A stretch of DNA of 24,353 bases from a virus: positions 1-24,353 of IMG/VR virus record IMGVR_UViG_3300007519_000629; one strand, given 5' to 3'. The number at the start of each line of letters is the position of its first letter. Positions within the stretch are counted from its first letter, which is position 1. The notes below the pieces were generated by a model, which saw only the letters and a list, made by a program, of their open reading frames with translations, was not told where the DNA came from and searched no databases. Position numbers and translations under genes: made by a program. Shown here piece by piece: positions 2,574 to 20,054 of the stretch.

Positions 2574-3761
2574 ATGGCAACTCAGTGGACTTTTGACGAT
2601 CAAGGCGGTACAAATAAGGAATATCTTCCTATTGACGCCATCCTTGCTGGTGCAGAAAATCCTTGCTGGGATGGCTATAAGCAAGTTGGAATGAAAAAGG
2701 GTAAAGGTGGGAGGATGGTTCCCAACTGCGTTCCTACTGATGCATCAGATGACTCAGAAGATTCAGAGTTTGCAGCAAAGAAAAGAACAATCTCTCAAAC
2801 TCCTGCCCCTAAGAAAGACAATATTAAAGGTTCAAATAAAAATAAAAAGGGATCTGCATCAGGATCAAAGAAAATCAATTTTTCAAAGTCTGTGGAAGCA
2901 TCTCTTGGTAAAAAAGTTTCAGACCACAATGAAAAAGCAAACAAAGGCCGTCGTGCAACTCTAGGAATGCTTAAGGCTGTCTATCGTCGTGGAGCTGGAG
3001 CTTTCTCTGGATCACACCGCCCCGGCATGAATCGCAACCAATGGGCTATGGGCCGTGTTAACGCCTACCTTCGCTTACTTAAGTCTGGTAAGCCAGCAAA
3101 CGCTAAATACACAACAGATAACGACCTTCTACCATCTGGTCACCCTAGATCATCTAAGAAATCTAACTCTATAATTGCATCAGCAGGTTTAGTACCTGAA
3201 GAAAAAGATTTAGCGGATGCGCTAATAGAGATTGCAGAAAAATATGGAAAATTCAATGAAGACGCCACAGGAATTTGGGCAGGATACACACCTCCAGCAG
3301 AAAACGATGTCAAAGACATCGGAGTCAAGTGCTCTTCATGTGTTCTATATATGGGTAATGGCCAATGCAGAATCCTCGAAATGGAAGTCGAAGACGAAGG
3401 TAAGTGTCGTTTCGCGGTTATTCCAGACGGCGTCGTTGATGTTGGAGTTCTTGAAGCCGAAAAAATAGGAAACACAGTTGAGTCAGAAGATGAACTAGCA
3501 CAGCTAGCTCAAGAATGGCGTTACGAAAACGAATTATCAGTAGAAATTAAAAAAGAAGAAGAATACGAATCTCCAGAAGAAGCTATCCTTGCTCTTACTG
3601 AGTTCTCAGATCTCGGGTATGAAGGGGAACACGCTATTCGCGCTTCATGGCTTCGTGGTGTACGAAACGGAGAAAACCCATTTAAAAGAGCAGCAAACTT
3701 TGCAGTTCTAGGTAAAGATAGTCTTGACTCTGATCTTATGCCTCTTACCGAGGACTATTGA
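2574..3761 (+). CDS. Phage head-region protein with C-W-x-G-Y, K-G-R-R and four-Cys modules
   Basis: This 395-residue protein has no named function that I know, but it is built from short modules that recur in phage head-gene clusters. Residues 30-54 form a P-C-W-D-G-Y ... P-N-C-V-P segment (Cys31, Cys52). Residues about 65-115 are Lys/Ser-rich and likely disordered. Residues about 117-195 hold a basic module (H-N-E-K, G-R-R-A-T-L, Y-R-R-G-A-G-A, N-A-Y-L-R-L-L-K-S-G) ending in D-L-L-P-S-G-H-P. Residues 253-278 hold four cysteines spaced C-x2-C-x8-C-x12-C, probably binding zinc or an iron-sulfur cluster; I recall similar motifs near XkdF-type phage proteins. The C-terminus is acidic. The D-L-L-P-x-x-H-P motif and the following S-(I/M)-x-A-S-A recur near the N-terminus of the next protein. 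The stop overlaps the next ATG (TGATG). An accessory head-maturation or internal virion role is inference. Confidence 0.6.
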   Translation: MATQWTFDDQGGTNKEYLPIDAILAGAENPCWDGYKQVGMKKGKGGRMVPNCVPTDASDDSEDSEFAAKKRTISQTPAPKKDNIKGSNKNKKGSASGSKKINFSKSVEASLGKKVSDHNEKANKGRRATLGMLKAVYRRGAGAFSGSHRPGMNRNQWAMGRVNAYLRLLKSGKPANAKYTTDNDLLPSGHPRSSKKSNSIIASAGLVPEEKDLADALIEIAEKYGKFNEDATGIWAGYTPPAENDVKDIGVKCSSCVLYMGNGQCRILEMEVEDEGKCRFAVIPDGVVDVGVLEAEKIGNTVESEDELAQLAQEWRYENELSVEIKKEEEYESPEEAILALTEFSDLGYEGEHAIRASWLRGVRNGENPFKRAANFAVLGKDSLDSDLMPLTEDY

Positions 3762-6700
3762 TGAGCTCAAAAAAGAAAATAGTTCTTTACTCAGCCGAGA
3801 GAGTATTTAGTTCTCGTCAACAAGCACGCATCATTCGTGATGAAGCAGTTGCTATGCTTGAGACAGCAAATGAATTTTCATCTACAAGTCGTAGAGTCGG
3901 TAAGCGCTCTGCCTTTAAAGTAATTGCACGCTCTTTAGAGTCAACTAGAGGTCTTCCATTCTCTATTCGCAAGCATAAAGCCATCACTGAGCTTTCTAAT
4001 TACATTTCATTGGCTAAGCATAATAAAATTAATGGCTTAGTAGCTTTTAACACAGACCTTCTTCCAATCTCACATCCAAAATCTACTCGTCCAAGTTCTA
4101 TGACTGCCTCTGCAATTCTAGAATCACAGATGCTTTGGGTAACTGATGACCCACGCATCACAGATCCAGAAGCAAAGGCTCTTATTGCCTCTGCAATGAT
4201 GTCCCATCCAGATTCTCCAGAGCACATCTACTCTATGAAGCGCATAGAGCTTCTTCCACAAGGCACAGTGCCTTTAGAAGCACTTGTAGCTTCTTACGGT
4301 GATGGAAACTCTCGTGCTGCAAAGTCTGCTCGTGCAAAACTTCAGCGTCGTGACCGTAAAGGTCGCTTCGCTGAGATGTTTGGAACATTTAAAGTTATTT
4401 TAGGTCTTCGTGACGGTGGACGAGCTAGCGCAACAGGTCGCATCCTTGGACAGAACATCTTTAGCCCCGATCTTCTTGATATGGAGCTTTCAGATGGTCG
4501 TATAGCAGCTATTCCAATCAGCCAAGGCGAACAACCAAAGGCAATGCTTGATGACACAAGCGATGAAGCTCGCAAGAGTGGTTTTGTCCGTGTTTCTGGA
4601 GCAAACTATGATGCAAAGGCTCCTGTAGTACCAGAGGACAACCTTACATTCATAGATGCCCCCTCTGGATTTCGTTTAGATAAAGATTATAAAGGTGCTG
4701 GAAAGAAATACACAGACGAAGCCTTCGATGTAGTCATCTATGACAAACCAAGCAAAGATACTCGTGATGTTATTGATAATGCTATTAAGCGTAGCCGCGA
4801 GCGCGATCTTGCAGATCCAAAACAAGTAAAACTTGGAGAAGATGGAAAGATTTGGGATGAAAATCGTAAACTATTTTCTGTAACTCGCCGTGATGAGCAA
4901 ACACCTTTTGTTTTTTCACAAAATTGGAACGACTCTATAGAAGAAATTGCTCGCATTGAAAAAATTGATGATTCTCAAGAGCGCTTTGGTCAGGGAGAAG
5001 ACGAAGAAAATAGCCCACTTGCAGATCAGTTAAAGGGGAAGCCAAAAAAAGCTAAGGCAAGAATTGCAGATGAAGGTGCAAAGACATCTGAAGGTTTTAA
5101 ATACAATGTTCCAGAAGGCTCTATTGAATTAGATCCCGACTTTGATTATGTTCCAGAAGGTACAGAAGATGACCCATCTCGACTAGCTGAAACCTATGAC
5201 AAATCTGAACTTATGGACGGACTTGTTGATGGACTAGAGCCAGTTAACGCTACAACACCTGCTGTAGGACTTGGCCGTCTAAGTCAAGATGATAAAGATG
5301 AAGATCTTGAAGTTCCTGTTGAAGCAATTCTTAGTGCTCTTAAAGAGCAAGGCTCTGATGGTAAGTCTGCTCTTGCTGAGGCATATGACAAGATTAATAA
5401 AAACAAAGAGAATCAGAATGCGTTAAAGGATTCTCGTAAGGGTGAAAAGAAAGCCAAAGCTGCAGAGCCTAAAGACATTGCTGATGTATTTCCTGAAGTA
5501 GCTACGGAGCCAGCTAAACCAGAAGAAGAGGCTCCTATTGAAGAGCCTACTGAAGATATTATTAGTGAGCAGACAGAACTATCTCTTGCAGAAAAATTAG
5601 ATCAGATGCCCGCTTTAGAATCTTTATCTAAAGAAGAAAAGCAATCTATTATTGATGACAATAATAATTACAGCAAATATCTTCCTAAAAATGAAAATGT
5701 CGCTATGCCAGAAGGAATGTACCAGCCTAAAGAATCTACAGAAAAAGATCGCACTGATGCAATCGATCTAGCTAGTTCTTTAGGAGAGAATCTTACAAAA
5801 GAAGATTTAACAGATAATTTAGAAGATGCAATTAAAAATGAAGGAACTGCAGAGTTTCTTTCCAGTGATGAAAATGGGGAGTCAAGTGAAGTATTTATAA
5901 GTGCTGAAGCTCTGCGTGATGCCCTAGCTTTGCGTGGCGAAGATGCAAATAAGATAATAAAGGATATTGCTGAAAGAAATACCCCAGCGACAAAAGAGCC
6001 AACTCCAGAAGAAAAACCTGCAAAAGAAAAGAAGAAGAAGGCTAAGAAGGAAGAGCCAGCTGCCCCTCCAACTCCTCCTACAGAACCCCCAGCAGAGGAT
6101 CCAGCGGCGGAAGAAGAAAAGCCAAAAAAGACTACTAACTATAAGCGAGTTGGAAACCGTACCTTAATTCGTGCAGGAAAAGGTAAGCCATTTAGTGACA
6201 AAGAAGTTAAAGATTTTCTAACAGAGAATGGTTTTGTTTTTTCAGACACTGTAGAGCGTGATGGAAGAACTATTCCCGTAAAAGCAGAGACAGCTATTCA
6301 AACTGATGAAGAGTTTAAAGCTTTTATGCGCGAACTGAGAGATCGTTTTGGTATTGAATTAGAACCACGAAAAGAAACAGCGTTCTCCCCTGCTCAAGAA
6401 CCAATTGACTTTGATGCGCCAGAACCAGGAAAGCCTGTAGTAGAAGAAGTACCTACCCCTGCTGAAGAAGAAAAACCAACCCCTTCCACAAAACCGCTAC
6501 CTAGTGGTCCAAAAATTACAGAAGATAAATCTAAAATCCCTAACGAACTTCCAGATATTTTGCCAGAAGGTTGGACAAAAGACGCTAACAGAATAGCTAA
6601 GAATGATGATGGAAGCCTTTTACTTCTAATAGATCAAAGTGGTAATAAATACTGGGTTCTAGTTGCCGATGGTTTAGGTACTGGAAAAGCGTTTAACTCT

Positions 6701-9700
6701 CCACAAGAAGCATTAGATTACTACGAAAAGAATATAAAGGGCAGAGAATCTTCTGTTAAACCTGTAGATTTAGACAAGCTTAGAGATGAGAATAAGCGTA
6801 AAGAATCAGAGCGTAGAAACACTAAAAAAGATATTCGTATTATTGAAAGGGCGCTTGATTCCGATACACTCGGCCCTGCAGATAGAAAGAATATAGAAGA
6901 AGAACTTAAAAAACTTAAAGAAAATCTTATACAACTTGAAAAAGATCTTGAAGGTAAACCATCTGAAGCAGATCAAGCTCCTACAGTTGCAGAAGATAAC
7001 AAAGACTTTGATGAAGAGCTTAAAAGCGATAAAGAATTTAAAGACCTGCTCGAAGCTCGTAAAGAGATACAGAAGGCAATAGATGAAGCAGATCTTTCTA
7101 AAGATTCTACCCCTGAAGAAAAAAGAGCTCTTCGTGAGGCATATAACGAGTTAACTCGTAGAATCGATGCAATAGTTCTTGGAGACGAAAGAAAGCTTAG
7201 AGACCTAATTGAGAAGCGTCGTAAAGTACAAAAGCAAATTGATGATGCAGATAGCTCGAATAAAGCCACTGCTGAACAAAAGAAAGAACTACGCGATCTT
7301 TACGATAGATTAACTCGTCAAATTGACGCAATAATTCTTGGAGAAGATTCTGAAAAAGAAGAAGGATCCGATGCAGATGCCGCAGTAGATACAGCATTTA
7401 TTGACATCCTCGACGAAGAATCAGATCCAAGAGATGTGGCGTTGGATAGAGTTCTTGACAACATGCGTTCTATGCTAAAGCTTTCTAAAGGAGAAAAGAA
7501 AGATTTAAGAAAACGCAAAAAGCTTCTTCTCAAAATCCTATACAGCACATTTGGTCCTTCAGCTCTTCGTTTAGACAGTAGAGATAGAATAGAAGTTAAG
7601 AATTTTCTTTTCGAGTTAAATAAACTTTCAACTGAAGATCTTGAATATATTGGCAAAGGTGTTAATGAAGAGCTTGGTTGGGAGTTCTTTAGAAACCTTA
7701 AAGAAACTGTGGATCGTCTTGATTCATATATACGATACGAAGGAATCATTACTCGTATTGAATTAGGCGATCCTATTAATCCACAAGGTATAGTTACTCC
7801 CGATAAAACTCAAATTAATGGAACTCCTGAAGTTCAAGAATCTCTCAAAGAATTTACCCCCGACAATACTCTTCACGTTGTCAACTCACTTGGAAAAGAT
7901 CTAAAGGCGGGTGATATTGCATTCCTCCGTGAAGGAGACGAGCTTGTTGAATTTTTTGTAGTTGAGGAAGTTCTTCCAGGAACAGTAATGACTAAGCGAG
8001 CAGATGGAAAACCAGATGTAGAGCAAGTTCAAATTCGTGGATACTATCCAGGACATCAATCGCAAGTTAAGGGTTGGAGTGTTGGTACATCTGTAGAAGC
8101 TATTCGTGGAGAGAAAACAAAAAATATTCCAGCTATGGGAGATAAGCCAGAGATACCAAGTATACCTCTAGGATCACTAAAAGGAAAAGCTTATCAAGAT
8201 AAAAAAGCAGAAATCTCGGCTGTAAGAAAAGAAGCAGGTAAGGTATATACACCTAACTTAAAAGCTACAGATATCCCAGCAGTACTTGTGGCAAAGCCTA
8301 ACTCTTTTGCTAGTGGCTCACGTCCAGCATTTTTTGGAAAAGCTGCAGAACTTGCAAACCTTAAAGATGGAAAAGCAATCTCGGATGCACTCAAAGGTAA
8401 GAGAGTTGTTTTCTTTGACTTTGAAACAATTGGAACTGGGAAGTTTGATAGTGATAATCCAGATGCTCCTATTCAGGTTGCAGCATCTGTATTTGAAGGA
8501 GGAGAAAAAGTTGGGGAGATCAACTTATTCATTAATCCTAGAGAAGCACTAGGTAAGTTCTACTATATAGATGAAGATCCTTCTAAGGGATTAGACCCAG
8601 CAAAACTTCTTACAAGTGATGGAACTCCAGTAGATGATGCATTCTTAGCATCTCAGCCATCTATCGAGGAACAACTTCGCAAGTTTGCAGAGTTTGCTGG
8701 ACAAGATGCAATTTTTGTTGCACATAATGCAGAGTTCGATACTAATACTTTTGAGAAGTGGGCAAAGAAGTTTGGTATTGATTACAACATGGATGGTGTA
8801 ATTGATACTCTAGAACTAGCAAAGAGCATGACACCTAAGGGTAATAAGCTAGGTCAAGTTGCTAAGCGTTATGGAATTGAAAAGACAGATGAAGAATGGC
8901 ACGATGCCAGAACTGACTCTGAGGTACTTCCACAAATCTTAGAAGGCTTGCTTGCAGATATGAAGCCTGATAATAAAGAATTTGACAATGCTACTCGCCT
9001 TGCTGAGTTTGAAGCTAAGCGTTCTTCATACAATGAAAAGATGGAAGCATTTAAGAAGCAAGAAGCAGAACTAGTCACTGCAGAGGCTGTAAAGCGTGGA
9101 ATGTCTGGCGAGCAAGTATCTATTGACGAGATGCTTGGAAAAGATAAAACAACCTCTGGCTTTGGCTCAGAAGGAAGTACAGACTCTGCAGAAGAGTATG
9201 CACTTGACTCTATCTTTGGCGAAAAGATTAATAACTCTTGGATTGAAGACGACGAGAATACATTTATCGTTGATGAAGGTGGCGCAACTGTTGGAGACAT
9301 CAAGATTGGTGACTTTGTACCTGCTGAAGGCGGCGGATACCATGAAGTTATAGATCTCCAACAAGATCCAGAAGATCCAAATGGAACTATTGTTGTTCGC
9401 AGAATTGTTGCTACTGGCGAGTTTTACAGTACTAGAGTAAAAGAGAAGAAGTCTCCAGGTATTGGCTGGTCTAATGGTCAAATTCTTAAAGGAACCTTGC
9501 GTCGTCGCAACGGACTATCTGGAAAGACAGCTGCAGAAATTAAAGATCTTGCATCTAAGCCAGTAGTAGTTGCTCCAGAACCTAAGACAAAAGAAAAGAC
9601 TCCTACACCTAAGGGTAAGAAGTCAATAACTCCAGAAGAAACACAGAGTGTTGTATCGGATGCTATCGAAACAATTACTTCTGGTTCTAAGTCAGATGCA

Positions 9701-12700
9701 ACTGTTAAGGAAGCTGTAAAGGCTCTTCCAGTTGATGACACGGTTAAGAGTCTTGTTCTTGCAGATCGCCCAGATGCGTCAATCAATCATCTTTCAGCAA
9801 GTGGTGTTGCTCTTAAGGTAGGAGATGAAGTAAGAGGAGTTAAGACTGGACGTATCGGTACTGTTAGGGCACTTATTACATCTTACGGATCTCGTGGATA
9901 TAAGAATTATGTCAAGGTTAAGTTTAATGGAACAGAGAAGCGTGAAAACATTTCTGCTGGTTCACTAGAAAGTATTAATCCAGATGATGGCAGTGGATTC
10001 TTTGCAGATCCAACTCCTCCTAAAGCTGGAGAGACATTAGATCCAAATACTAGCCCTAAATCTAAAGAAGATTTAGCTTCACTGTTAGACGGAAAAGTTC
10101 CAGAAGGTCAGCCTACAGTTGAAATTCCTGAAGAGCCAGTAGTACCTGATAGAGAAAAAGCTATTGCTTACTATAAAGAAAAAGAAGTAGAGAGAATGAA
10201 ATATGCTCTTGAACTTAACTATCGTCAAGTAAGTCCTGAAGCACTTCAATCACTTACAGCTGCTGTTTCTGATATCTCTAAATTTGAAAAAGGTCATACA
10301 AGATCATTTACTTCATTTATGCCAAACCTTTCAACAGGAGAGCCTTTAGAAAGATCATTTACTTTTGTAAAGCCAAGTAAAGAAGATCTTAAATACCATG
10401 AGTATTTAGAAGAAGACGATATTATTGTAAAAACTGGACCAGTAAATACTGCAGCTGTTATTAAATCAGACGGAAAGATTCTTTATTTAGAGAATCCAAA
10501 TGTTCCAAATTGGAAACTTAGTGTCGTATCTCCAGATTTAAATACTGCTTTAGAAAATAAAAATGCAGTAAATCTGCCTTTAGGGGAAAATCCTGATCTT
10601 CCAAATTTGGGAATGATTTCATTTAATCAAGAGTTTCTTGGAGAAGTATCTGGAAGTCCAGACGAGACACCAGATCCAGATTTTGTTGTAGATAGCCCTG
10701 ATGCAGCACCAAAGGGAATTAAGCCAACTAAACAACAGCAAGCAGTAATTGACGCTATAGTTTCTGGCAAAGATGTGATTGTTCAAGCTCTTGCTGGTAC
10801 AGGTAAAACTAGCACGTTAAAGATGGCTGCAAAAGCTATTGCAGAAAAAGATCCAGATAAAACTATTCTTTACATTGCATTTAATAAGGCTGTAGCTGCA
10901 GAACTTAATGCAGATCCAGATCGTCCATCGAATATGGTTGCAAGAACTAACACACAGGTAGCTTGGCATCACTCACCTGCTTGGATGCAAAAACGCAGCT
11001 TCGATAAGACATCTATATTTTCTCCAACAGAGGTAGCTGATCATCTTGGAGTAGGACCAGTTAAAGTTACAGAAGTTAAAAAAGATGGAACAAAAGCAGA
11101 TGCAACGCTTTCAAGCAGAGAAGTAGTTGCTGTTGTTCGTCAGGCAGTAACAGCATTTGCACAGAGCGCAGATGAAAAGATTATGCCTCGGCACTTTACA
11201 GATAACTTTGTAGATATTCCTGAAGTATTTATTGATTATGCTAATCGTTGGTGGGATGATATATCAAGCCCTAAAGGTAAATTAGCAATGAATCAATCTT
11301 TTCCAGAGAAGTACGTTCAGTTAAATGGCATCGATGTAACAATGTCACCAAATGAAGGAGGTTTAAACCCTAATACAAGAATTCCTGCAGCAGACATTAT
11401 CTTCTTTGATGAGGCACAAGATATCAATGACGTTGCTGGCGACTGGGTTCGTAAGCAAAAAGTACAAAAAGTATTTGTTGGAGATGGTAATCAGTCAATC
11501 TATGGATTTCGTGGAGCTAAAGATCAGCTAGATACACTCGAGGGAGCAGATAAGCTTCAAATCACAGAGTCATTCCGCTTTGGCCCAAACATTGCAGCAC
11601 CTGCAAACCGTTTTTTAGCTGTTGCTGGAAAATCAGAAAAAATTGTTGGAGCTGGTAAAGATCAAGGTGAGCTTGTAGAAGGAATGGAAGATCCAGATGC
11701 CGTTCTTGTTCGCACTAATGGTGGTGGATTTAAAGCAATGCTTGAATATCTTGAGCAGGACAAAGTTGTAGGAATTAGTCAATCAACTAAAGCAAGACTA
11801 GAAGAAGTTATTGAAACAACAAGCTGGCTTATGGGTGGTAAGAAAGGCTCAAAACCAGCTAAATACAATGCAGAAATTGGAATGTACGATTCTTGGGAAG
11901 AACTCTCTACTGCGGTGCGAGAAGGAAAAGCTCGTCCAGTTAAAGCTTTCTATGATCTAGTCACACAAAACGGTATGCAGAGCATTCGTGACATCTTAGA
12001 TCGTGTTGTTGTAGAACGTGAAGAAACTGCTGAAAGTAAGCTTGCTCTTACAAAATATAAGCCGCTTACTTTAGATCTTGTAGAAGATGGCTCTACTGGA
12101 AAACTTGATAAAGACACAACATATAAAATTGAAGGCGACGATGTTGTTCTTACTGGATTCTTTAAGTTTAACAATGAAAAACTAAAAGAAGCTGGATTTA
12201 AAGCAAGAAAAGGTATAGATGGCAATTGGGCAAAAGACAGACGTATAACTATAGAAGATAATCTAAACAAGGTTGATAAACTCAATCAACTAAAAAAAAT
12301 TCTTGAAGGTGTTATTGAGCCAGTTAAGGCAGATGTTGTTATTACCACTGCACATCAGTCAAAGGGTCTGCAATGGAACAAGGTTCGCATTTACGATGAC
12401 TTCTGGGGTCCAAAGTTTAATAAGGAAACTGGCGATATTGATATGCCAGCACCAGAAGAATTACGTCTTGCATATGTTGCAGTTACTCGTGCTCAGAAGC
12501 AATTAGATCTTGGCCCACTTACATGGGTTAATGACTACACCACGGAAGAAGATGAACAAGCTATTTCATCATCTTTTAATGTGGAAGCAATGTCAAATAT
12601 TAATACTGACCCAACACCAGTAACTCCAGAAGAGTTTGATAATGAGGTACAAGAGACTGCTAAGAAAGCAGACCCAGCCACACAAAGGATTGCAGATGCC

Positions 12701-14380
12701 ATTATTGCTGCACTCGAAGCTGGAACAGCACCTTGGCGCAAACCATGGGCTGGTGGGGGGGTTATGCCAACTAGTGTTGCAACTGGGAAAATGTATGAGG
12801 GGTCAAACATCCTCTCTCTCTGGGCTGCTCAGGCAGCAAATGGCTGGGCAGATAACCGCTGGCTTACATACAAGCAAGCGGAAAAACTTGGCGGAAATAT
12901 TAAGCGTGGAGAAAAAGCAACCTCAATTATTCACTGGACTCCAAAGTTTAAAGATGTAAAGCAGCCAAATGGAACTACTGAAAAAGTATTTGTTTACACT
13001 CCACCAAAAATTATTAATGTATTTAACGTAGAGCAAGCAGAGGGAGTTAATCTTCCTCCACTTGTTAAGGGTGAACCAGTTCCAGTAGGTCAAGGAGAGC
13101 AAGCTATTCTTGATGCATATAAGGACCGACCAGAGATCTTCTACAAGTCTCAAGACAGTGCCTATTACTCACCTATAACAGACACAATTCATCTCCCACT
13201 GCGTGAACAGTTTGGGACAGAGCAAGATATATTTGAAACTCTTGTTCATGAACTTGCACACAGCACAGGTCACACATCTCGTGTAAATCGTAAAGATCTT
13301 ACAGATAACTATGGAACTCATAGAGAAAGCCGTGGAGAAGAAGAACTTATTGCAGAGATATCTGTTGCAATTGCGGCAGCACGTCTTGGCGTTGAGATTG
13401 ACTTTGGGAACGTTGCATCATACGCAAAGTCATGGCTTGGATCTCTTAAGAACGATCCAACAATGATCATCAAGGCAGCCAAGCAAGCACAAAAGGCTGT
13501 TGATCACATGCTAGGAAAGCAAGAAGAACCAGCAAAGTTTGATGAAGAAGGAAACCCTGTCGAACCTGTTGGCGAAGGTGTTGGAAGCGAAGGTAAGACT
13601 GGCGATCAGATTGCAGAAGATGCAGGTCTAAAGCCAGAACCAACTCCTGAACCTAATGTAGGAGAGCAGGGTAAAACTGGGGAAGAGATTGCTCGAGAAG
13701 ATGATATAAAACCTGCTGGTACAAAAGGCGGACATAATCTTAGCCCTAGAGAAGTATTTAACAAACAGTCGGTCCGTAGCGATGTAGATATTAAAAAAGT
13801 ATACGGTGCAGAAGATGTACATCAGCCTCAATTGCAAAGAGACGTGAAACAACCTGTTGCCCCTAAACGTGAAGATTTTCAAGATAGAGATTCTTATGTA
13901 GCAGCTTATAAAAAATACTCTAAAGAGTATGATGACATGTATCGTGAAAGCTCAAGAAATATTCAATCTTCAATAGGAGAAAAAAATTTAGACGGGTCTC
14001 AAAAAGGTGTTCAAAATTATGTAAAAGATGTAATAACTGCTGATTGGTTTGTAGAAACCTTTGGTGACGGAGGACAGATGGGAAGACCTCCAGTCAGTCT
14101 GATAACTAGTAAAAAAGCAGGTGGTAAATATATTTATGGCTTTAAAAATGGTGTATACAAATCAGCATTAAAAATTAACAGCCTTTTATCAAAAAGTGAG
14201 CCATCTATCCTTCACGAGATCGCTCATTTTGCTACAGCAATTAGCGTGGGAGAGGGATTTGATGCTCATGGTGTAGAATATAGAATGAATTATATTTTTA
14301 TTACTAATAAAGTACTTGGTCGTGAATCTGCAGAAAGTCTTAAAGAAGCTTACAGAAAGGCAAATTTAAATGTCGGATGA
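3761..14380 (+). CDS. Giant polyvalent protein: exonuclease, helicase, ArdC, metallopeptidase
   Basis: One uninterrupted 10.6-kb frame encodes about 3539 residues. ATG 3761 is preferred over TTG 3758 because it forms a TGATG overlap with the previous gene and GAGG lies seven bases upstream. Order (numbering from 3758): N-terminal region with D-L-L-P-x-x-H-P and S-M-T-A-S-A (115-119); R-D-R-K-G-R-F and a probable small beta-barrel (198-270); long acidic, Pro/Glu/Lys-rich linkers with small islands; coiled coil and a 53-residue tandem repeat (about 1000-1200); DEDDh exonuclease (about 1545-1730); two probable KOW/SH3-like barrels (about 1830-1910 and 2010-2070); SF1 helicase (about 2320-2920); ArdC module (about 2972-3252); C-terminal HExxH metallopeptidase (about 3390-3540). 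This matches the polyvalent proteins of phages and conjugative elements, thought to enter the recipient cell with the DNA. Its place between portal and capsid genes supports packaging in the virion, as for phage P1 DarB. The packaging is inference. Confidence 0.85.
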   Translation: MSSKKKIVLYSAERVFSSRQQARIIRDEAVAMLETANEFSSTSRRVGKRSAFKVIARSLESTRGLPFSIRKHKAITELSNYISLAKHNKINGLVAFNTDLLPISHPKSTRPSSMTASAILESQMLWVTDDPRITDPEAKALIASAMMSHPDSPEHIYSMKRIELLPQGTVPLEALVASYGDGNSRAAKSARAKLQRRDRKGRFAEMFGTFKVILGLRDGGRASATGRILGQNIFSPDLLDMELSDGRIAAIPISQGEQPKAMLDDTSDEARKSGFVRVSGANYDAKAPVVPEDNLTFIDAPSGFRLDKDYKGAGKKYTDEAFDVVIYDKPSKDTRDVIDNAIKRSRERDLADPKQVKLGEDGKIWDENRKLFSVTRRDEQTPFVFSQNWNDSIEEIARIEKIDDSQERFGQGEDEENSPLADQLKGKPKKAKARIADEGAKTSEGFKYNVPEGSIELDPDFDYVPEGTEDDPSRLAETYDKSELMDGLVDGLEPVNATTPAVGLGRLSQDDKDEDLEVPVEAILSALKEQGSDGKSALAEAYDKINKNKENQNALKDSRKGEKKAKAAEPKDIADVFPEVATEPAKPEEEAPIEEPTEDIISEQTELSLAEKLDQMPALESLSKEEKQSIIDDNNNYSKYLPKNENVAMPEGMYQPKESTEKDRTDAIDLASSLGENLTKEDLTDNLEDAIKNEGTAEFLSSDENGESSEVFISAEALRDALALRGEDANKIIKDIAERNTPATKEPTPEEKPAKEKKKKAKKEEPAAPPTPPTEPPAEDPAAEEEKPKKTTNYKRVGNRTLIRAGKGKPFSDKEVKDFLTENGFVFSDTVERDGRTIPVKAETAIQTDEEFKAFMRELRDRFGIELEPRKETAFSPAQEPIDFDAPEPGKPVVEEVPTPAEEEKPTPSTKPLPSGPKITEDKSKIPNELPDILPEGWTKDANRIAKNDDGSLLLLIDQSGNKYWVLVADGLGTGKAFNSPQEALDYYEKNIKGRESSVKPVDLDKLRDENKRKESERRNTKKDIRIIERALDSDTLGPADRKNIEEELKKLKENLIQLEKDLEGKPSEADQAPTVAEDNKDFDEELKSDKEFKDLLEARKEIQKAIDEADLSKDSTPEEKRALREAYNELTRRIDAIVLGDERKLRDLIEKRRKVQKQIDDADSSNKATAEQKKELRDLYDRLTRQIDAIILGEDSEKEEGSDADAAVDTAFIDILDEESDPRDVALDRVLDNMRSMLKLSKGEKKDLRKRKKLLLKILYSTFGPSALRLDSRDRIEVKNFLFELNKLSTEDLEYIGKGVNEELGWEFFRNLKETVDRLDSYIRYEGIITRIELGDPINPQGIVTPDKTQINGTPEVQESLKEFTPDNTLHVVNSLGKDLKAGDIAFLREGDELVEFFVVEEVLPGTVMTKRADGKPDVEQVQIRGYYPGHQSQVKGWSVGTSVEAIRGEKTKNIPAMGDKPEIPSIPLGSLKGKAYQDKKAEISAVRKEAGKVYTPNLKATDIPAVLVAKPNSFASGSRPAFFGKAAELANLKDGKAISDALKGKRVVFFDFETIGTGKFDSDNPDAPIQVAASVFEGGEKVGEINLFINPREALGKFYYIDEDPSKGLDPAKLLTSDGTPVDDAFLASQPSIEEQLRKFAEFAGQDAIFVAHNAEFDTNTFEKWAKKFGIDYNMDGVIDTLELAKSMTPKGNKLGQVAKRYGIEKTDEEWHDARTDSEVLPQILEGLLADMKPDNKEFDNATRLAEFEAKRSSYNEKMEAFKKQEAELVTAEAVKRGMSGEQVSIDEMLGKDKTTSGFGSEGSTDSAEEYALDSIFGEKINNSWIEDDENTFIVDEGGATVGDIKIGDFVPAEGGGYHEVIDLQQDPEDPNGTIVVRRIVATGEFYSTRVKEKKSPGIGWSNGQILKGTLRRRNGLSGKTAAEIKDLASKPVVVAPEPKTKEKTPTPKGKKSITPEETQSVVSDAIETITSGSKSDATVKEAVKALPVDDTVKSLVLADRPDASINHLSASGVALKVGDEVRGVKTGRIGTVRALITSYGSRGYKNYVKVKFNGTEKRENISAGSLESINPDDGSGFFADPTPPKAGETLDPNTSPKSKEDLASLLDGKVPEGQPTVEIPEEPVVPDREKAIAYYKEKEVERMKYALELNYRQVSPEALQSLTAAVSDISKFEKGHTRSFTSFMPNLSTGEPLERSFTFVKPSKEDLKYHEYLEEDDIIVKTGPVNTAAVIKSDGKILYLENPNVPNWKLSVVSPDLNTALENKNAVNLPLGENPDLPNLGMISFNQEFLGEVSGSPDETPDPDFVVDSPDAAPKGIKPTKQQQAVIDAIVSGKDVIVQALAGTGKTSTLKMAAKAIAEKDPDKTILYIAFNKAVAAELNADPDRPSNMVARTNTQVAWHHSPAWMQKRSFDKTSIFSPTEVADHLGVGPVKVTEVKKDGTKADATLSSREVVAVVRQAVTAFAQSADEKIMPRHFTDNFVDIPEVFIDYANRWWDDISSPKGKLAMNQSFPEKYVQLNGIDVTMSPNEGGLNPNTRIPAADIIFFDEAQDINDVAGDWVRKQKVQKVFVGDGNQSIYGFRGAKDQLDTLEGADKLQITESFRFGPNIAAPANRFLAVAGKSEKIVGAGKDQGELVEGMEDPDAVLVRTNGGGFKAMLEYLEQDKVVGISQSTKARLEEVIETTSWLMGGKKGSKPAKYNAEIGMYDSWEELSTAVREGKARPVKAFYDLVTQNGMQSIRDILDRVVVEREETAESKLALTKYKPLTLDLVEDGSTGKLDKDTTYKIEGDDVVLTGFFKFNNEKLKEAGFKARKGIDGNWAKDRRITIEDNLNKVDKLNQLKKILEGVIEPVKADVVITTAHQSKGLQWNKVRIYDDFWGPKFNKETGDIDMPAPEELRLAYVAVTRAQKQLDLGPLTWVNDYTTEEDEQAISSSFNVEAMSNINTDPTPVTPEEFDNEVQETAKKADPATQRIADAIIAALEAGTAPWRKPWAGGGVMPTSVATGKMYEGSNILSLWAAQAANGWADNRWLTYKQAEKLGGNIKRGEKATSIIHWTPKFKDVKQPNGTTEKVFVYTPPKIINVFNVEQAEGVNLPPLVKGEPVPVGQGEQAILDAYKDRPEIFYKSQDSAYYSPITDTIHLPLREQFGTEQDIFETLVHELAHSTGHTSRVNRKDLTDNYGTHRESRGEEELIAEISVAIAAARLGVEIDFGNVASYAKSWLGSLKNDPTMIIKAAKQAQKAVDHMLGKQEEPAKFDEEGNPVEPVGEGVGSEGKTGDQIAEDAGLKPEPTPEPNVGEQGKTGEEIAREDDIKPAGTKGGHNLSPREVFNKQSVRSDVDIKKVYGAEDVHQPQLQRDVKQPVAPKREDFQDRDSYVAAYKKYSKEYDDMYRESSRNIQSSIGEKNLDGSQKGVQNYVKDVITADWFVETFGDGGQMGRPPVSLITSKKAGGKYIYGFKNGVYKSALKINSLLSKSEPSILHEIAHFATAISVGEGFDAHGVEYRMNYIFITNKVLGRESAESLKEAYRKANLNVG
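7043..7348 (+). repeat. Tandem 53-residue repeat inside the polyvalent protein
   Basis: Two copies (about 7043-7189 and 7202-7348) align without gaps at a 159-base period. About 26 of 49 compared residues are identical, and both copies end in R-I/Q-I-D-A-I-(V/I)-L-G. The units are charged and helical, with a heptad-like pattern of E/K/R and L/I, and probably form a helical hairpin or coiled coil. The DNA copies have diverged more than the protein copies, so this is an old duplication. Confidence 0.85.
8396..8965 (+). other. DEDDh 3'-5' exonuclease domain (DnaQ-like) within the polyvalent protein
   Basis: All metal ligands of the DnaQ-like DEDDh family are visible: Asp1554 and Glu1556 in F-F-D-F-E-T, Asp1661 in A-H-N-A-E-F-D, and His1715 with Asp1720 in H-D-A-R-T-D. 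The domain is about 190 residues, normal for the family, and should remove nucleotides from 3' ends. A roughly 40-residue insertion lies between the first and second motifs. No polymerase is attached, so it is not simply a proofreading domain in cis. Numbering is from 3758. Confidence 0.9.
10712..12525 (+). other. UvrD/Fbh1-like SF1 helicase domain within the polyvalent protein
   Basis: The SF1 motifs are present in order: P-T-K-Q-Q-Q-A-V-I (Q-motif), A-L-A-G-T-G-K-T (Walker A, Lys2350), F-F-D-E-A-Q-D (Walker B, Asp2551 Glu2552), V-G-D-G-N-Q-S-I-Y-G-F-R-G-A (III), E-S-F-R-F-G (IV), T-T-A-H-Q-S-K-G-L-Q-W (V) and Y-V-A-V-T-R-A-Q (VI, Arg2911). The Y-I-A-F-N-K-A-V-A-A-E motif Ia is like that of the Fbh1 group. 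The enzyme should be ATP-dependent and move 3'-5' on single-stranded DNA. With the exonuclease in the same chain, a role in resecting or repairing DNA ends is plausible but not shown. Confidence 0.9.
12671..13515 (+). other. ArdC antirestriction module (ssDNA-binding plus zincin) within the polyvalent protein
   Basis: The segment starts with A-D-A-I-I-A-A-L-E-A-G-T-A-P-W-R-K-P-W and continues with W-L-T-Y-K-Q-A and the I-K-R-G-E-K-A-T motif, the ArdC N-terminal single-strand-binding domain (DUF1738). It is followed by a zincin domain with H-E-L-A-H (His3164, Glu3165, His3168) and the E-E-L-I-A-E-I motif. ArdC from conjugative plasmids protects incoming DNA from restriction. The zinc ligands look intact, so peptidase activity is possible. 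Confidence 0.9.
13920..14377 (+). other. Second metallopeptidase-like domain (TIGR04338-like) at the C-terminus of the polyvalent protein
   Basis: The last 150 residues contain H-E-I-A-H (His3486, Glu3487, His3490), and His3504 in D-A-H-G-V-E-Y thirteen residues later as the likely third ligand. The pattern of helix, W-F-V-E-T-F-G, strand, L-H-E-I-A-H and H-G-x-E-Y resembles the TIGR04338 family of putative metallohydrolases of actinobacteria and their phages. The substrate is unknown. This zincin is distinct from the ArdC one. Confidence 0.7.
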
Positions 14381-14486
14381 TTACGAGTATGAAATTGTTG
14401 ATCCTTTAGGTCCTGACTACAGCCCAGAGCCTTCTGAAGAAGTTCTTACAGAAGAAGAACAAGAAGAAGAAGAAGAGACGGTATAA
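14370..14486 (+). CDS. Tiny acidic protein (38 residues)
   Basis: A 38-codon ORF starts with ATG 14370, overlaps the end of the polyvalent gene by eleven bases, and ends three bases before the next ATG. AGAAAGG lies about ten bases upstream. The product is strongly acidic, ending in a run of Glu residues (E-E-E-Q-E-E-E-E-E), and has no Cys or hydrophobic segment. It resembles no family I know. Overlap, Shine-Dalgarno and tight packing support translation, but its small size keeps this tentative. Confidence 0.5.
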   Translation: MSDDYEYEIVDPLGPDYSPEPSEEVLTEEEQEEEEETV

Positions 14487-14488
14487 TA

Positions 14489-14614
14489 ATGGCTAAGTCT
14501 GATAAAGAGCGGTACAACGAGGCTGTCGTTGCTGCTTATCGTAAGATTATTGAGTTAGCAGAAGTTGACCCTAATGCTGACTCCTATGAGCCTGAGGATG
14601 AGGAAGTGCTGTGA
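14489..14614 (+). CDS. Small acidic protein (41 residues)
   Basis: This 41-codon ORF begins two bases after the previous stop and overlaps the following GTG start by four bases (GTGA). The N-terminal half (K-E-R-Y-N-E-A-V-V-A-A-Y-R-K-I-I-E-L-A) would form an amphipathic helix, and the C-terminal half is acidic. No family is recognised. The four-base overlap is the best evidence that it is a real coupled gene. No strong Shine-Dalgarno is visible before its ATG, so it may depend on ribosomes ending the previous ORF. Confidence 0.5.
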   Translation: MAKSDKERYNEAVVAAYRKIIELAEVDPNADSYEPEDEEVL

Positions 14615-15327
14615 GACTCTCTAATGCTAAAACCTATCCCACTGAGGGAATGTCGTTAATTTATGCCAACGGAGAGAATGTTGTCTATCAAGCAATTTTT
14701 TACACAGAAAACTATGGAACATTTACAAGAGTAGATGGTAAGTGGCTTGCTCTAGCTTCAGATGATACTAGTTTAGAAAATCTTTCTATTATGGATATTA
14801 CTCCTGCTGATTACAAAGTAGTTACAGATATGTTTGATACGGCACAAAAAACTAAAACATATCTAAAATATGATCAGGTAAAAAATTACGAAGTTGCATA
14901 TTCTTTTGAAGAAAAAAATAGATCAATGACAGCAGCAGTTGAGACTTCAGAAGGATGTCCTCCTGCAACTTCAGATATTGCACTTAACCTCGCCAATCGT
15001 GAGAATGCAATTAAGACTGCAGGATACGGACCAATGAATCCAGCACTGCCAAATAATAAGTTTTGGCAAGCAAAAACAGAGCGTTGGTCTGTGACAGTTG
15101 AAGAAGCTAAAACATCACGCTGCGGCAACTGCGCTGTCTTTATTCAAACCCCAAAGATGCTTGATTGCATTGCTTCTGGCCTAGGTAACGAGTCAGGAAA
15201 TGACGCTTGGGGCTCAATAGAGGCTGGCGATCTAGGGTATTGTGAAGCGTTCGACTTTAAATGTGCATCATCTAGAACTTGCGACGCTTGGGTTGCTGGC
15301 GGGCCAGTTACAGAGGAGTCTAAGTAA
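14611..15327 (+). CDS. Phage protein with C-terminal six-cysteine cluster
   Basis: This 238-residue protein has an N-terminal beta-rich domain (about 1-100), then R-S-M-T-A-A (104-109, a recurring motif of the cluster), then a segment with D-I-A-L-N-L-A-N-R and Y-G-P-M-N-P, and finally a cysteine module: C171-x2-C174-x11-C186-x24-C211-x6-C218-x5-C224, ending C-D-A-W-V-A-G-G-P. I recall the C-G-N-C ... G-Y-C ... F-K-C ... T-C-D-A-W pattern from many phage head-cluster proteins. The spacing suggests a zinc or iron-sulfur site. GTG 14611 is chosen because of GAGGAA about five bases upstream and the four-base overlap; ATG 14650 lacks a well-spaced site. The stop overlaps the next ATG by one base. 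The function is unknown; a structural or maturation role is inferred from position. Confidence 0.65.
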   Translation: MRLSNAKTYPTEGMSLIYANGENVVYQAIFYTENYGTFTRVDGKWLALASDDTSLENLSIMDITPADYKVVTDMFDTAQKTKTYLKYDQVKNYEVAYSFEEKNRSMTAAVETSEGCPPATSDIALNLANRENAIKTAGYGPMNPALPNNKFWQAKTERWSVTVEEAKTSRCGNCAVFIQTPKMLDCIASGLGNESGNDAWGSIEAGDLGYCEAFDFKCASSRTCDAWVAGGPVTEESK

Positions 15328-18300
15328 TGGAATACATGGGCCGTATTGAGTCTAGAGTTCTATTTACTGACGATGGTCAAGGTGCTGTTATCGATGAGCT
15401 AACTAATCTTGTAGTTGCGTTAGACACAAAAGAGACTCTTCTTGCTGCTGCCCAATGGGACTTAGATCTTGAGCGCCATAACGATACTTCAGTAGAACTT
15501 GCTAACGCTGCTCTGACTAATCTTGATATCAAAGTATTTTCAAATAATGACCGTATGTACACCATCCCTGACTCAGTTGTTGCTGAGGCAAAGCGCGGAC
15601 TTGAGTGGCGAAAAGAAGAAGATCGTGGCGGTACATCTGTCGGTGTTAATAGCGCCCGAACACTTGCTCGTGGTGGTCAGGTTGGTATTAAAAAAGTTCG
15701 TCATATTGCTAAATACTTTCCTCGTCATCAGGTAGATAAAAAAGGAACTGGTTATAAGCCGGGAGAAAAAAATTACCCATCTAATGGCCGTATCGCTTGG
15801 GCTCTTTGGGGTGGAGATGCAGCAGAGCGTTGGGCATCTGCAATTGTAGAGCGTGAAAATAAGAAAGATAAATCTAATTCAGTGATGACTGCAGGACTTG
15901 ATCCTATGAATTATGAAATGCCAAAGAAAGTCAATTACGATTCTTTTATAACTACAAAAACTATGCCAGAAGATAATGTCATAGAATTTTTTATTCGTGT
16001 TCGCTTAGACGGTTCTGGTATTGATCGTCTCTATCGCATTGAACCAGAAGGTCAGATTTATGTTTGGGACGATGGCGACTGGGATGACATGGGCATGCCA
16101 GATTATGACATGTTAATGTACGACAATATTTTAGATATGAATCAAGAAACTGTTCCTTGTGGTCACATTCCTGTGGATACAGATACAGCTCTTCTTATTG
16201 CCGCACTTCTAGATAATGAACCATTTATTGCACATAAACTTGAAAAAGTTAACCCAGAAGAAACTCAAATGTTTACAGAAGCATCACCGGGGATGGATTG
16301 GGGTCTTCTAGACGAACTAGCACTTCCAGATGAGATGTCCGATTCTTGGGACTTCTTTGACGATAGCCTTACAGCCGCTGGAGAACCTGCCGCAACTGAT
16401 GGAAACTATACCCCCGATGAGCGCTCAAAAAATACAGAATCACAGTTGCGTGATAAAACAGGTAAATTTGCAAAGATGGGTGGCCGTGTAGTTATTGCTG
16501 GTCGTCCTCAATATCAAGGAAATATTCGTGCAATTAATCCTGATTCAGGTACAGTAAAAATTCAATTAGATAATGGAAATACAGTTGATCTTGCAGCAAA
16601 TCTCACAGAACCTTTAGAGTCATACACTCCTATTCCTGATGCAGTTGCTAGCGATAGTCTTGATACTTCTGGAATTCTTGGTGAGCCTCGTACTCCCATG
16701 GATTCTCCTGTCCGTATGCCGGGAACACTTCCTCCACTTAACGCAGCAAATTTAAATACAATGCTTACAAACTATCCTCAATGGGTAGCCGACCAAAGAC
16801 TTTCCGCTGATGTTGCAGGAAGTCAACCCCAGTCGGGTGAGCAAGCTAAACCAGCTACACGCTCTGCTAATCCTTTAGCAAAGTATTACCCACAGGTAGC
16901 TAAAGGTGCAGAAATGAAAGCAGTGAATGCTTACAATGTTGCAAACCTTAAATCATGGCTAGCAGCGGATACAACTGGAAGACGATCTGCTCCACCATTT
17001 ATGAACCCTGCAGATAATAAAAAATTTGTAGAAGATAAAGGTGCAAACAGTCCTTGGCTAGATAAAAAAGGTAAAGCCCTTAAAGCATCTGCAGAAGACA
17101 CGCCTTTAACACCAGAAACTTCTGATGTTGCCATTATTCACATGGCTGTAGTTTCACCAGATGACCCTCAGGCAGTAATGGATTTAGTTGCGTTACATCC
17201 AAAGACTAAAAATACAATTCAGCCTACAACTTTTGTTAGAAAAGAAGGCAAGTGGGTTCACGATCCTCAGATGCTAATGGATCTTCGTAGTGCAACTCCA
17301 CCACCTGTAATTGTTTTAGATGATAAAAATCTTTTAGATGTTTTAGAGCAAGTTGACGAGAATAAACAATCTATGACTGCCGCTGGTGGCGCAGATCGTA
17401 ATCGTGGAAACGCAGAAAAGCTTCGTCGCTATTGGACTTACGGCAAGGGTGGAGCAAAGATTCGTTGGAAGACTCCCGGAGATTGGACTCGTTGCTACAA
17501 GCAACTTGCCAAATATATGGGTCCTCGTGCCAAGGGTTATTGCGCCCTTCGCCACAAAGAGATGAATGGCTATTGGCCAGGAGATAAAAAAAATCGTGAG
17601 ATGGGTTCATTTACTGTAGATACTTTGCGTAATTATGACGAACTTCTGAGCACTTTTGCTCTCCGTGCAAAAGCAGCAGATGCTCGTTCTAGAGTTTTAC
17701 TTGCTGGAGCAGATGTGGAAGAGCAACAAGGATCAGAATTTTTTATTCCTTTAGTAATCCCAGAAGGACTTGAATCTGGAGATGGTCGTGTCATGGAAAA
17801 AGGCGCTCTTAGTATGCGTGAACTTCCACTTCCATTATTGTGGCAAATCCAGACTGGAGAAGGTCATAACGGCTCCGTTGTTGTTGGAAAGATTGTTCAG
17901 ATGGAGCGCACAGACCAAGGAATTGGTAATGCTCGTGGCTTCTTTGATAAAGGAGAATACGGACAAGAAGCTGAGCGTTTAGTGCGCGGTGGCTTTATTC
18001 GTGGAGTTTCAGCTGATTTAGATCAATTTGAAGCTGATGAAGAAGTGCCAGAGGCTAAAGAAGGATCTGACACTAAGATAGAAAGCGGTAAAATAAAGAT
18101 CAAGAAAGCACGAGTCATGGCTGTGACTTTAGTGCCAAAGCCAGCTTTTCAAGAATGCACAATTAAACTCGCTGAAGAGCTCGGCGTTGAGGAGGAAGAA
18201 AAAGTGAACATCCCTGACGGCGTTTATGTCGAAGAAATAAATGCACTAGATGCTTCGGCTCTAGTTGCTTGTGGAATGATTGCTGGAGCAATCCCAGTAA

Positions 18301-20054
18301 CACCCCCTACAGAGTGGTTTGATAACCCCAAGCTAAGTGGACCGACCCCACTAACTGTTGATGATGATGGTCGCGTTTTTGGTCATATTGCTGCATGGCA
18401 TGTTGATCACATTGGTCTGAGTATGGGAACAAAGCCACCTCGCAGCCGAAGTGGTTATGCATATTTTCACACAGGAGTAATTCGTACAACTAGCGGAAAA
18501 GATGTTGCTGTTGGTCAACTAACTCTTGCAGGCGGTCACGCTGGAATGGAAGCGTCTGCTGCTGAAGCAGTTCGTCATTATGACGACACAGCATCTGCAA
18601 TTGCAGATGTTCATGCAGGAGAAGATGCTTATGGAATTTGGGTAGCAGGATCTCTTCGTTCAGGATCATCCCCAGAACAAGTTCGTGCACTCCGTGCCTC
18701 AGCACCTTCAGGTGATTGGCGCCCAATTAAGAATTCATTAGAACTTGTTGCAGTTTGTCAAGTCAATGTTCCCGGATTTCCAATTGCTCGTGCTCGTGTT
18801 GCATCTGGAACAGTTATGGCACTTGTCGCCGCTGGCGCACAGGTTCTTGCTCAGATGAAGGTAGATCCTCTCTCCGAGCTTAGCCAAAGACTTGAAGCTT
18901 TAGAGAATCCTCAAAAGATGGCACTTGTCGCATCGGCTGCATCTGCTCGTGCTCGTGTTCAAGAATTTCAAAATGAACAGCTCAGTACAAAAAAAGCACT
19001 TGTAGCATCTAAAGTTGCAAAGATGAAAGCAGATACAGAGCTTGATTCAGATTATATGAATCAACTATTTGACGAAGATCCAGAGCAAGAAATGGCTGTA
19101 ATCACTCGTCGTGTTCGTGAGCGTTTAGCAAAAGAAGGCAAAGCACTTGCAGATGGTTCATACCCTATCCGTAATGCTTTAGACCTAAAGAACGCTATTC
19201 AAGCATATGGTCGCGCAAAGCCGGGAAGTCGTGGCAAGGTAAAGCGTCATATTGTGAAGCGTGCCATCGGTCTTAACCGTGAAGAGCTAATCCCAGAAAA
19301 TTGGAAGGGTGCTGCAGCAGATCTTGATAATATTGTTGCCTCGATGAAAGCAAGTGCTAAAGTTGCTTTTGCAATGATTTCAAGCAATTCTGAAGCAGTT
19401 TTTTCACAGTCAGAATTTTCCGAAGCAGAAGAAGAAAAAGTCATTGCAGATCTTACCGACGAAGAAATTGAAGTTCTCAGACAAGAAGCAAAGACTCGTA
19501 AGGATCAGGAAAATGATGGTATTTCTAGAGATGAAGATGGCCGTATTAAATACACCCCTGAAACTCAGCCTCGTGATGCCTCTGGAAAGTTCCGTCAAGT
19601 TCTAGCTCGTATTAAGCAGAACTTAGGAAACTCTGGTCTTCAGAATGTTCTTGAGAAAATAAAAGAAGCAGAAAACTTTGATAGCACTGGAAACTATGCT
19701 GGAGCAGCTAAAGCAGCAGCAGATTTACTCGGGATTATTGATCGATTGGACTCTGGAGCGTTAAATTCTGACGCTTTAGAAAATGTCCGTACTAGTGCTG
19801 CCGAGCTTGGAAAGGTTATCGCTAACCTCCCATTTGCCTTCGGTGAAGATGCAGAGAAGATTCGCTTCTCCGATATCCCACCTGCTCTGAAAGACCTTAT
19901 GAAAGACATGATTACTCGTGTAGAAGACAAGATTGGCAAGGAAGATGCCGATATTGCTACCGCTGACCTTAGAAACTTTATGTCTGGCGGGGACTACTAC
20001 AATCAATCTGAGGTCTCATCCCAAATGGCTAAGCTCCTTCGCTTACTTACATAA
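15327..20054 (+). CDS. HK97-type prohead protease embedded in a 1575-residue fusion protein
   Basis: The protease core is at about residues 797-950: a strand-rich start, His847 in G-H-N-G-S-V-V-V-G, Ser895 in R-G-V-S-A-D-L-D, and a closing V-M-A-V-T-L-V-P-K-P-A-F. This is the layout of caudovirus serine proteases that mature the capsid. Before it: a R-G-G-T-S-V-G ... W-A-L-W-G-G-D-A-A-E-R-W module (about 95-170), V-M-T-A-G-L (186-191), an acidic region, S-L-T-A-A-G (347-352), R-D-K-T-G-K-F plus a small barrel (375-425), S-M-T-A-A-G-G (682-688), and a Y-W-T-Y-G-K-G-G module (about 700-755). After it: the domain usual in actinophage proteases (about 990-1170, with G-P-T-P-L-T-V and A-G-E-D-A-Y-G-I-W-V-A-G), a D-G-S-Y-P-I-R-N module (about 1260-1330, DUF6582-like), R-D-A-S-G-K-F (1416) and a helical C-terminus that could scaffold. 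GAGGAG lies eight bases before ATG 15327. Confidence 0.85.
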   Translation: MEYMGRIESRVLFTDDGQGAVIDELTNLVVALDTKETLLAAAQWDLDLERHNDTSVELANAALTNLDIKVFSNNDRMYTIPDSVVAEAKRGLEWRKEEDRGGTSVGVNSARTLARGGQVGIKKVRHIAKYFPRHQVDKKGTGYKPGEKNYPSNGRIAWALWGGDAAERWASAIVERENKKDKSNSVMTAGLDPMNYEMPKKVNYDSFITTKTMPEDNVIEFFIRVRLDGSGIDRLYRIEPEGQIYVWDDGDWDDMGMPDYDMLMYDNILDMNQETVPCGHIPVDTDTALLIAALLDNEPFIAHKLEKVNPEETQMFTEASPGMDWGLLDELALPDEMSDSWDFFDDSLTAAGEPAATDGNYTPDERSKNTESQLRDKTGKFAKMGGRVVIAGRPQYQGNIRAINPDSGTVKIQLDNGNTVDLAANLTEPLESYTPIPDAVASDSLDTSGILGEPRTPMDSPVRMPGTLPPLNAANLNTMLTNYPQWVADQRLSADVAGSQPQSGEQAKPATRSANPLAKYYPQVAKGAEMKAVNAYNVANLKSWLAADTTGRRSAPPFMNPADNKKFVEDKGANSPWLDKKGKALKASAEDTPLTPETSDVAIIHMAVVSPDDPQAVMDLVALHPKTKNTIQPTTFVRKEGKWVHDPQMLMDLRSATPPPVIVLDDKNLLDVLEQVDENKQSMTAAGGADRNRGNAEKLRRYWTYGKGGAKIRWKTPGDWTRCYKQLAKYMGPRAKGYCALRHKEMNGYWPGDKKNREMGSFTVDTLRNYDELLSTFALRAKAADARSRVLLAGADVEEQQGSEFFIPLVIPEGLESGDGRVMEKGALSMRELPLPLLWQIQTGEGHNGSVVVGKIVQMERTDQGIGNARGFFDKGEYGQEAERLVRGGFIRGVSADLDQFEADEEVPEAKEGSDTKIESGKIKIKKARVMAVTLVPKPAFQECTIKLAEELGVEEEEKVNIPDGVYVEEINALDASALVACGMIAGAIPVTPPTEWFDNPKLSGPTPLTVDDDGRVFGHIAAWHVDHIGLSMGTKPPRSRSGYAYFHTGVIRTTSGKDVAVGQLTLAGGHAGMEASAAEAVRHYDDTASAIADVHAGEDAYGIWVAGSLRSGSSPEQVRALRASAPSGDWRPIKNSLELVAVCQVNVPGFPIARARVASGTVMALVAAGAQVLAQMKVDPLSELSQRLEALENPQKMALVASAASARARVQEFQNEQLSTKKALVASKVAKMKADTELDSDYMNQLFDEDPEQEMAVITRRVRERLAKEGKALADGSYPIRNALDLKNAIQAYGRAKPGSRGKVKRHIVKRAIGLNREELIPENWKGAAADLDNIVASMKASAKVAFAMISSNSEAVFSQSEFSEAEEEKVIADLTDEEIEVLRQEAKTRKDQENDGISRDEDGRIKYTPETQPRDASGKFRQVLARIKQNLGNSGLQNVLEKIKEAENFDSTGNYAGAAKAAADLLGIIDRLDSGALNSDALENVRTSAAELGKVIANLPFAFGEDAEKIRFSDIPPALKDLMKDMITRVEDKIGKEDADIATADLRNFMSGGDYYNQSEVSSQMAKLLRLLT

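Follow-up and report, generated by a model that had tools for sequence, protein, structure and literature searches.

A giant polyvalent protein with head-type N-terminal modules, probably packaged and injected, in the head operon of a predicted actinobacteriophage

We describe a giant protein, encoded in a phage head operon, that joins an exonuclease, a helicase, an ArdC homologue and a further zincin behind an N-terminal part composed of modules related to head proteins. By the definition of Iyer et al. (2017) it counts as a polyvalent protein, and we consider it probable that it is packaged in the virion and injected. Packing in the virion is supported by its fixed place in the head operon, by the head-homologous N-terminal modules, by the TA(A/S)-type sites that they have in common with head proteins, and by the recurrence of this head module on giants whose cargo is unrelated. 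The operon is carried by the window, the whole analysed stretch of 24,353 nucleotides, which is a 24-kb virus fragment from IMG/VR (IMGVR_UViG_3300007519_000629). Its features are as follows; residues are numbered as in the Pfam search, with residue 1 at the TTG at 3758.

368-2104, + strand: portal protein (phrog_776, 2e-103)
2104-2568, + strand: Dps/ferritin-like protein (Pfam Ferritin, 7e-13)
2574-3761, + strand: DUF5824-like head gene, carrying module A homology (Pfam, N-module profile)
3761-14380, + strand: giant polyvalent protein, 3539 aa, 391 kDa, pI 5.0
3812-4114, + strand: module A of the giant, helical, ending in the site-like MTASA (4100-4114); homologous to the DUF5824-like head gene
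4283-4762, + strand: module B of the giant, an RDRKGRFAEM box and a beta-rich domain, common to the scaffold/protease polyprotein and giants of cultured phages
4763-7825, + strand: acidic, fast-evolving linker and coiled-coil region (D+E content, dN/dS)
8408-8929, + strand: DEDDh 3'-5' exonuclease domain with FDFET, AHNAEFD and HDARTD (Pfam RNase_T, residues 1551-1724, 1.5e-16)
10730-12505, + strand: UvrD/FBH1-type SF1 helicase with all motifs, residues 2325-2916 (Pfam UvrD-helicase, UvrD_C)
12677-13486, + strand: full-length ArdC homologue, residues 2974-3243, composed of ArdC-N (12677-12961) and a zincin (13145-13486)
13994-14353, + strand: C-terminal HEXXH zincin, TIGR04338/Rv0185-like (E 2.9e-6, weak)
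14370-14486, + strand: tiny ORF of 38 aa overlapping the stop of the giant (ORF inspection, relatives)
14489-14614, + strand: tiny ORF of 41 aa overlapping the start of the next gene (ORF inspection, relatives)
14611-15327, + strand: Cys-rich head-operon protein, its conserved part beginning after MTAAVE (sequence comparison)
15327-20054, + strand: scaffold/maturation-protease polyprotein, carrying module B homology (PHROGs, profile match)
20222-22300, + strand: major capsid protein with a long N-terminal part and a site-like VTAAGDD near residue 265 (phrog_777, 4.6e-83)

The head operon belongs to a relative of Actinomycetia phage DSL-LC01, whose capsid protein is 75% identical over the aligned part. 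DSL-LC01 is a lake metagenome phage with Actinomycetia as its predicted hosts (PMC10611076), and the window virus is likewise predicted to infect freshwater actinobacteria. The giant occupies a single intact frame (3758-14380), open across 3540 codons, and its likely start and stop, the ATG at 3761 and 14380, bear out the single chain of 3539 residues described in an earlier note on this DNA. Intact giants are found in the close relatives L003 and L005-L008 as well, where identity is 72-84% across most of residues 1357-3540, and a further contig, L175, has a giant N-terminus 99% identical to that of the window. The same note placed the gene between portal and capsid genes and coupled to its neighbours on both sides. 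The place is right, but the portal gene is not adjacent, as the Dps-like and DUF5824-like genes intervene. Coupling is direct at the 5' side, where the ATG at 3761 shares a base with the stop codon of the preceding gene (TGA, 3759-3761), whereas the 3' side is connected not directly but through the two tiny overlapping frames, both of them retained in most close relatives.

Several details of the operon vary between relatives. A Dps/ferritin-like gene between the portal and DUF5824-like genes occurs in only 6 of 80 related loci. The Cys-rich protein is annotated as HiPIP in DSL-LC01, and its domain is fused to the DUF5824-like gene in L142, L158 and L171. The single 1575-aa scaffold/protease polyprotein of the window corresponds to three genes in DSL-LC01, which also has another very large gene (L018 28221-36782) that codes for 2853 aa, bears the annotation ALK receptor and lies in a cluster of collagen-like genes. 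An Rfam search gave nothing credible.

Pfam recognised the exonuclease, the helicase and ArdC in the enzymatic part of the chain, a second metallopeptidase lies at its C-terminal end, and the alignment of relatives confirms the catalytic motifs. The exonuclease domain matches structures of PolC and DNA polymerase III epsilon. The helicase (UvrD-helicase, residues 2325-2588, 3.9e-11; UvrD_C, residues 2829-2916, 3.2e-10) belongs with phrog_1967 (E 3.8e-71), and its best relative among solved structures is human FBH1 (E 4.9e-24). ArdC-N and the first metallopeptidase (ArdcN, residues 2974-3068, 6.9e-30; MPTase-PolyVal, residues 3130-3243, 2.8e-28) together form one ArdC protein, which matches the solved ArdC 6i89 over 278 query residues (E 1.6e-47) and also 6sna (about 2e-47). 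The HExxH and downstream conserved glutamate of ArdC are found as HELAH and EELIAEI, kept in 10 relatives, while the zincin motif reads HELGH in L114 and L117. An anti-restriction function is thus a candidate for this part of the giant. The C-terminal zincin (HEIAH...HG) matches TIGR04338 weakly, at 2.9e-6 and 27 bits against a curated cut-off of 90; its HEIAH and HG are conserved among close relatives, and an AlphaFold2 model, built from 8 similar sequences, had a pLDDT of 38 and was not used. This zincin is absent from the L113 giant, and the end of its region differs in L004. Synonymous divergence from close relatives in its region (13538-14377) is far below that of ArdC (dS 0.25-0.35 against 0.77-0.96), which suggests recent exchange.

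The catalytic motifs align with few substitutions across 10 relatives; in the divergent pair L114/L117 the second exonuclease motif is VGQNIGFD, with the aspartate retained. The exonuclease, helicase and ArdC domains are under purifying selection, with dN/dS against the five closest relatives of 0.07-0.23, 0.07-0.16 and 0.06-0.17, respectively, and of up to 0.34 against L113. Between the head modules and the enzymes, residues 336-1356 are mostly acidic (D+E 17-30% per 100 residues), in agreement with the linker and coiled coil of about 1000 residues reported earlier, and dN/dS there is 0.28-0.70. Such a long acidic and coiled-coil region, together with modules in common with the scaffold/protease polyprotein, might be expected of a mainly structural head protein, a large scaffold or inner-capsid component with enzymatic domains as minor passengers. 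This is very unlikely, since it is the enzymatic domains that are most conserved (dN/dS 0.06-0.23) and keep their catalytic residues, whereas the middle drifts (0.3-0.7).

Residues 1-335 of the giant consist of two modules homologous to neighbouring head proteins. Module A is related to the 395-aa DUF5824-like head protein of the window (gene 2574-3761; profile E 1.2e-8, relatives to about 1e-11) and is helical in AlphaFold2, with local pLDDT of about 83-94. Module B, with its RDxxGKF box, has its counterpart in the 1575-aa scaffold/protease protein at residues 347-435 (E 8.7e-8, relatives to 4e-14); it is also related to the extreme N-terminus of the giants of the cultured phages Cece, Pumpernickel, Racecar and Atuin (E about 1e-28 to 1e-11). 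A profile built from residues 2-335 matches only 4 of the 145 proteins of DSL-LC01, and all four are among its 12 head genes (hypergeometric chance about 3e-5). The predicted fold of the whole N-module (pLDDT 78) has no structural match with E below 0.001 in PDB or BFVD; prohead-protease, XkdF and ChaB-like proteins appear as weak matches in BFVD, which are no more than suggestive. Among 84,980 bacterial and archaeal genomes the N-module search found no relative, and hence no prophage or named host there.

The first 335 residues also contain TA(A/S)-type sites resembling those of the capsid protein. The N-module has them at three places, of which the first is missing in some divergent giants; in the capsid protein (near residue 265) and the Cys-rich protein (near 106) such motifs mark the point where a divergent N-terminal part gives way to a conserved body. 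Head proteins are moderately enriched in them, with 7 in 7682 aa (0.91 per 1000 aa) against 5 in 30156 aa (0.17 per 1000 aa). From this recurrence, they look like candidate prohead-protease sites. Motifs in common with head proteins had been claimed from the first reading of the DNA; modules A and B and the TA(A/S) sites give that claim substance.

The place of the giant is fixed to a high degree. In an independent scan with the N-module only, which gave 80 loci, a portal gene lies 0.9-1.7 kb upstream on the same strand in 79, and the contig of the remaining one stops 1.4 kb upstream. Conversely, among 80 IMG/VR loci collected by portal similarity, the N-module is present in all 59 that have at least 1.5 kb downstream (counted by hand), in a frame that comes after the one or two genes 3' of the portal. 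A scan with ArdC only gave 7 loci, with a giant in 7/7 and the capsid gene at its usual downstream place in six, the seventh ending earlier. Homologues lying mostly outside head clusters, named in the earlier note as evidence against packing, were looked for; the opposite was found, with a portal gene shortly upstream in 79 of 80 loci.

What follows the N-module is variable. In 17 diverse giants, Pfam detected RNase_T in 6, UvrD in 5, a PI3/4-kinase-like domain in 3 and ArdC with MPTase in 2, and NUDIX, ART and sigma-70 region 4 in 1 each. The module heads such other sets as UvrD without ArdC, ART with UvrD, PI3/4-kinase-like, NUDIX or sigma-like. ArdC is present in 22 loci, a number that includes some near-identical copies. 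A split version exists in L171 (9448-16637), where an 888-aa N-module protein is accompanied by a separate 854-aa head-operon protein with two ArdC copies. Directly 3' of the portal gene, Orf10 of Gordonia phage GMA2 (L015 7981-10632), which is only distantly related to the window phage, has an Acb1/2H-like end (weak, E 8e-4). Over its first 900 residues the giant is equally close or closer to L041 (48-84% identity per block) than to L003 (35-65%), whereas residues 1351-3300 are much closer to L003 (65-93%) than to L041 (23-69%). Such a switch of lineage between head module and cargo is as expected if the cargo block was exchanged by recombination, and the sequences behave as expected of cargo that is exchangeable between phages behind a constant head module.

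Two further explanations concern the producing cell. The first is an ordinary replication or recombination exonuclease-helicase placed in the head operon by chance, to which one could be led by phrog_1967 (DNA helicase) and phrog_192 (polymerase exonuclease subunit), both classed as DNA metabolism. We regard it as highly improbable, because PolA and an SF2 helicase have genes of their own in another cluster, tens of kilobases away, and because several relatives lack the helicase or the exonuclease in this slot, where the head module is always there. The separate cluster was found in 5 of 6 relative contigs tested (G002 has neither gene), and it argues against the giant being the standard replication set. 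For the same reason, a plain replication helicase was rejected as the main reading of the giant. On large contigs of close relatives, the giant nevertheless holds the only UvrD-type helicase and the only DEDDh exonuclease, and it may therefore act within the cell that produces the phage. Being the only enzymes of their kind there also speaks for the second explanation, a DNA-processing protein that is made late, stays in the cytoplasm and is tethered to the prohead; its exonuclease and helicase would rid concatemers of branches or bound proteins at packaging and its ArdC would guard DNA of the producer cell, with no injection. The head-operon position and head modules would tether such a packaging helper equally well. 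Same-slot siblings, however, carry host-modifying or defence-related domains (ART, 2H/Acb1-like), some have no UvrD or DEDDh match, and ArdC travels with DNA in conjugation (PMC5512222); we therefore judge this explanation unlikely, if less so than the other alternatives.

Head-packed giants of comparable kind are found in phages P1 and N4. DarB of phage P1, which has a methyltransferase domain, is a giant anti-restriction protein packed in the head, which the window giant would resemble as a putative protein of this type; the latter shows no methyltransferase domain (no methylase family is among the matches listed by Pfam, PHROGs and NCBIfam scans) and has ArdC and an exonuclease instead. The virion RNA polymerase of N4, at about 3500 aa, is similar in size, has an MPTase and is packed in the head, whereas no RNA polymerase domain was found in the window giant by the same three scans. 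The N4 MPTase domain is described in PMC5512222. DarB (251 kDa) is present at about 40 copies per head, and a reporter fused to just its N-terminal 30 residues is packaged (PMC9024508); trimming by the prohead protease is known for other head proteins of P1 (PMC9024508, PMC12810830). P1 Dar proteins have no N-terminal consensus sequence (PMC9024508), in contrast to the conserved head-type N-module that the window giant has in common with several head proteins. Position, head modules, variety of cargo and the DarB precedent (PMC9024508) make packaging and injection the best reading, one that is strongly suggested.

Polyvalent proteins are a known class (Iyer et al. 2017, PMC5512222). As in phage-type members, the giant has at least two domains of disparate activity in one chain and its gene lies among the virion genes of a portal-terminase phage; a zincin-like MPTase, common but not obligatory in such proteins, is present, next to ArdC-N. 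ArdC-N is rare in phage-type polyvalent proteins and UvrD occurs in a few actinomycete giants, in conjugation-like contexts, and DnaQ is unmentioned in the main text (PMC5512222). Unlike the proteins described there, the window giant unites ArdC-N, UvrD and DnaQ-type domains behind a head module common to its neighbours. The combination was not found in either annotated collection searched, phage or plasmid: among 50,697 phage records, coverage of the C-terminal 2000 residues at any one place is at most 31%, and the best coverage in annotated plasmids is 36%. What is new here is the domain set, together with a head module that identified neighbours also possess and the evidence that the cargo following this module is exchanged.

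Related enzymes occur as separate genes on plasmids, in place of the one chain of the window phage. One plasmid that encodes homologues of both ArdC and the helicase is typed as conjugative. In Pantoea plasmids, genes for an ArdC-like protein, a UvrD helicase and TraI are found within a short distance of one another; in L253 (2944-8369) the row is ArdC-like zincin, DUF1281, UvrD helicase and TraI. This neighbourhood with TraI suggests that ArdC and a UvrD-type helicase serve together when DNA enters a cell, and ArdC is a protein transferred with DNA in conjugation (PMC5512222). Among cultured phages, Racecar gp78 and Atuin gp71 (Arthrobacter) and Pumpernickel gp82 and Cece gp68 (Microbacterium) occupy the same post-portal slot and have a homologous module B. 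The Racecar and Atuin giants also carry a UvrD helicase, and that of Atuin an ART, so its cargo differs from that of the window; no ArdC or DEDDh domain was found in the four.

We propose that the N-terminal modules would recruit the giant into the prohead by contacts also used by neighbouring head proteins, where it is probably trimmed at its TA(A/S)-type sites by the protease of the prohead. The acidic linker would supply flexibility, and the giant would leave the head together with the DNA. ArdC would then shield the incoming DNA against restriction, the DEDDh exonuclease and FBH1-like helicase would act on the entering DNA, and one or both zincins may cleave the chain into working pieces. 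End resection or protection, removal of bound proteins and action on host DNA are all candidate tasks of the exonuclease and helicase, end processing or protection being the most likely; end resection or repair and the blocking of restriction are inferred from domain identity only. Between phages, the cargo would be swapped while the head module remains.

More tentatively, and with somewhat less than even confidence, we suggest that the N-terminal head module is a general delivery platform, which loads interchangeable multi-enzyme giants into capsids for injection across this actinobacteriophage lineage. The window giant would then be a one-chain entry kit, in which restriction is blocked by ArdC and the genome ends are managed by the exonuclease and helicase. 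The cultured phages Racecar, Atuin, Pumpernickel and Cece permit a direct test of such loading. If the proposal is true, widespread freshwater and soil actinobacteriophages bring their first-strike proteins along in a single giant chain, which is exchangeable and can be recognised by its loading module, and the sequence of this module would help to find injected effectors whose function is unknown.
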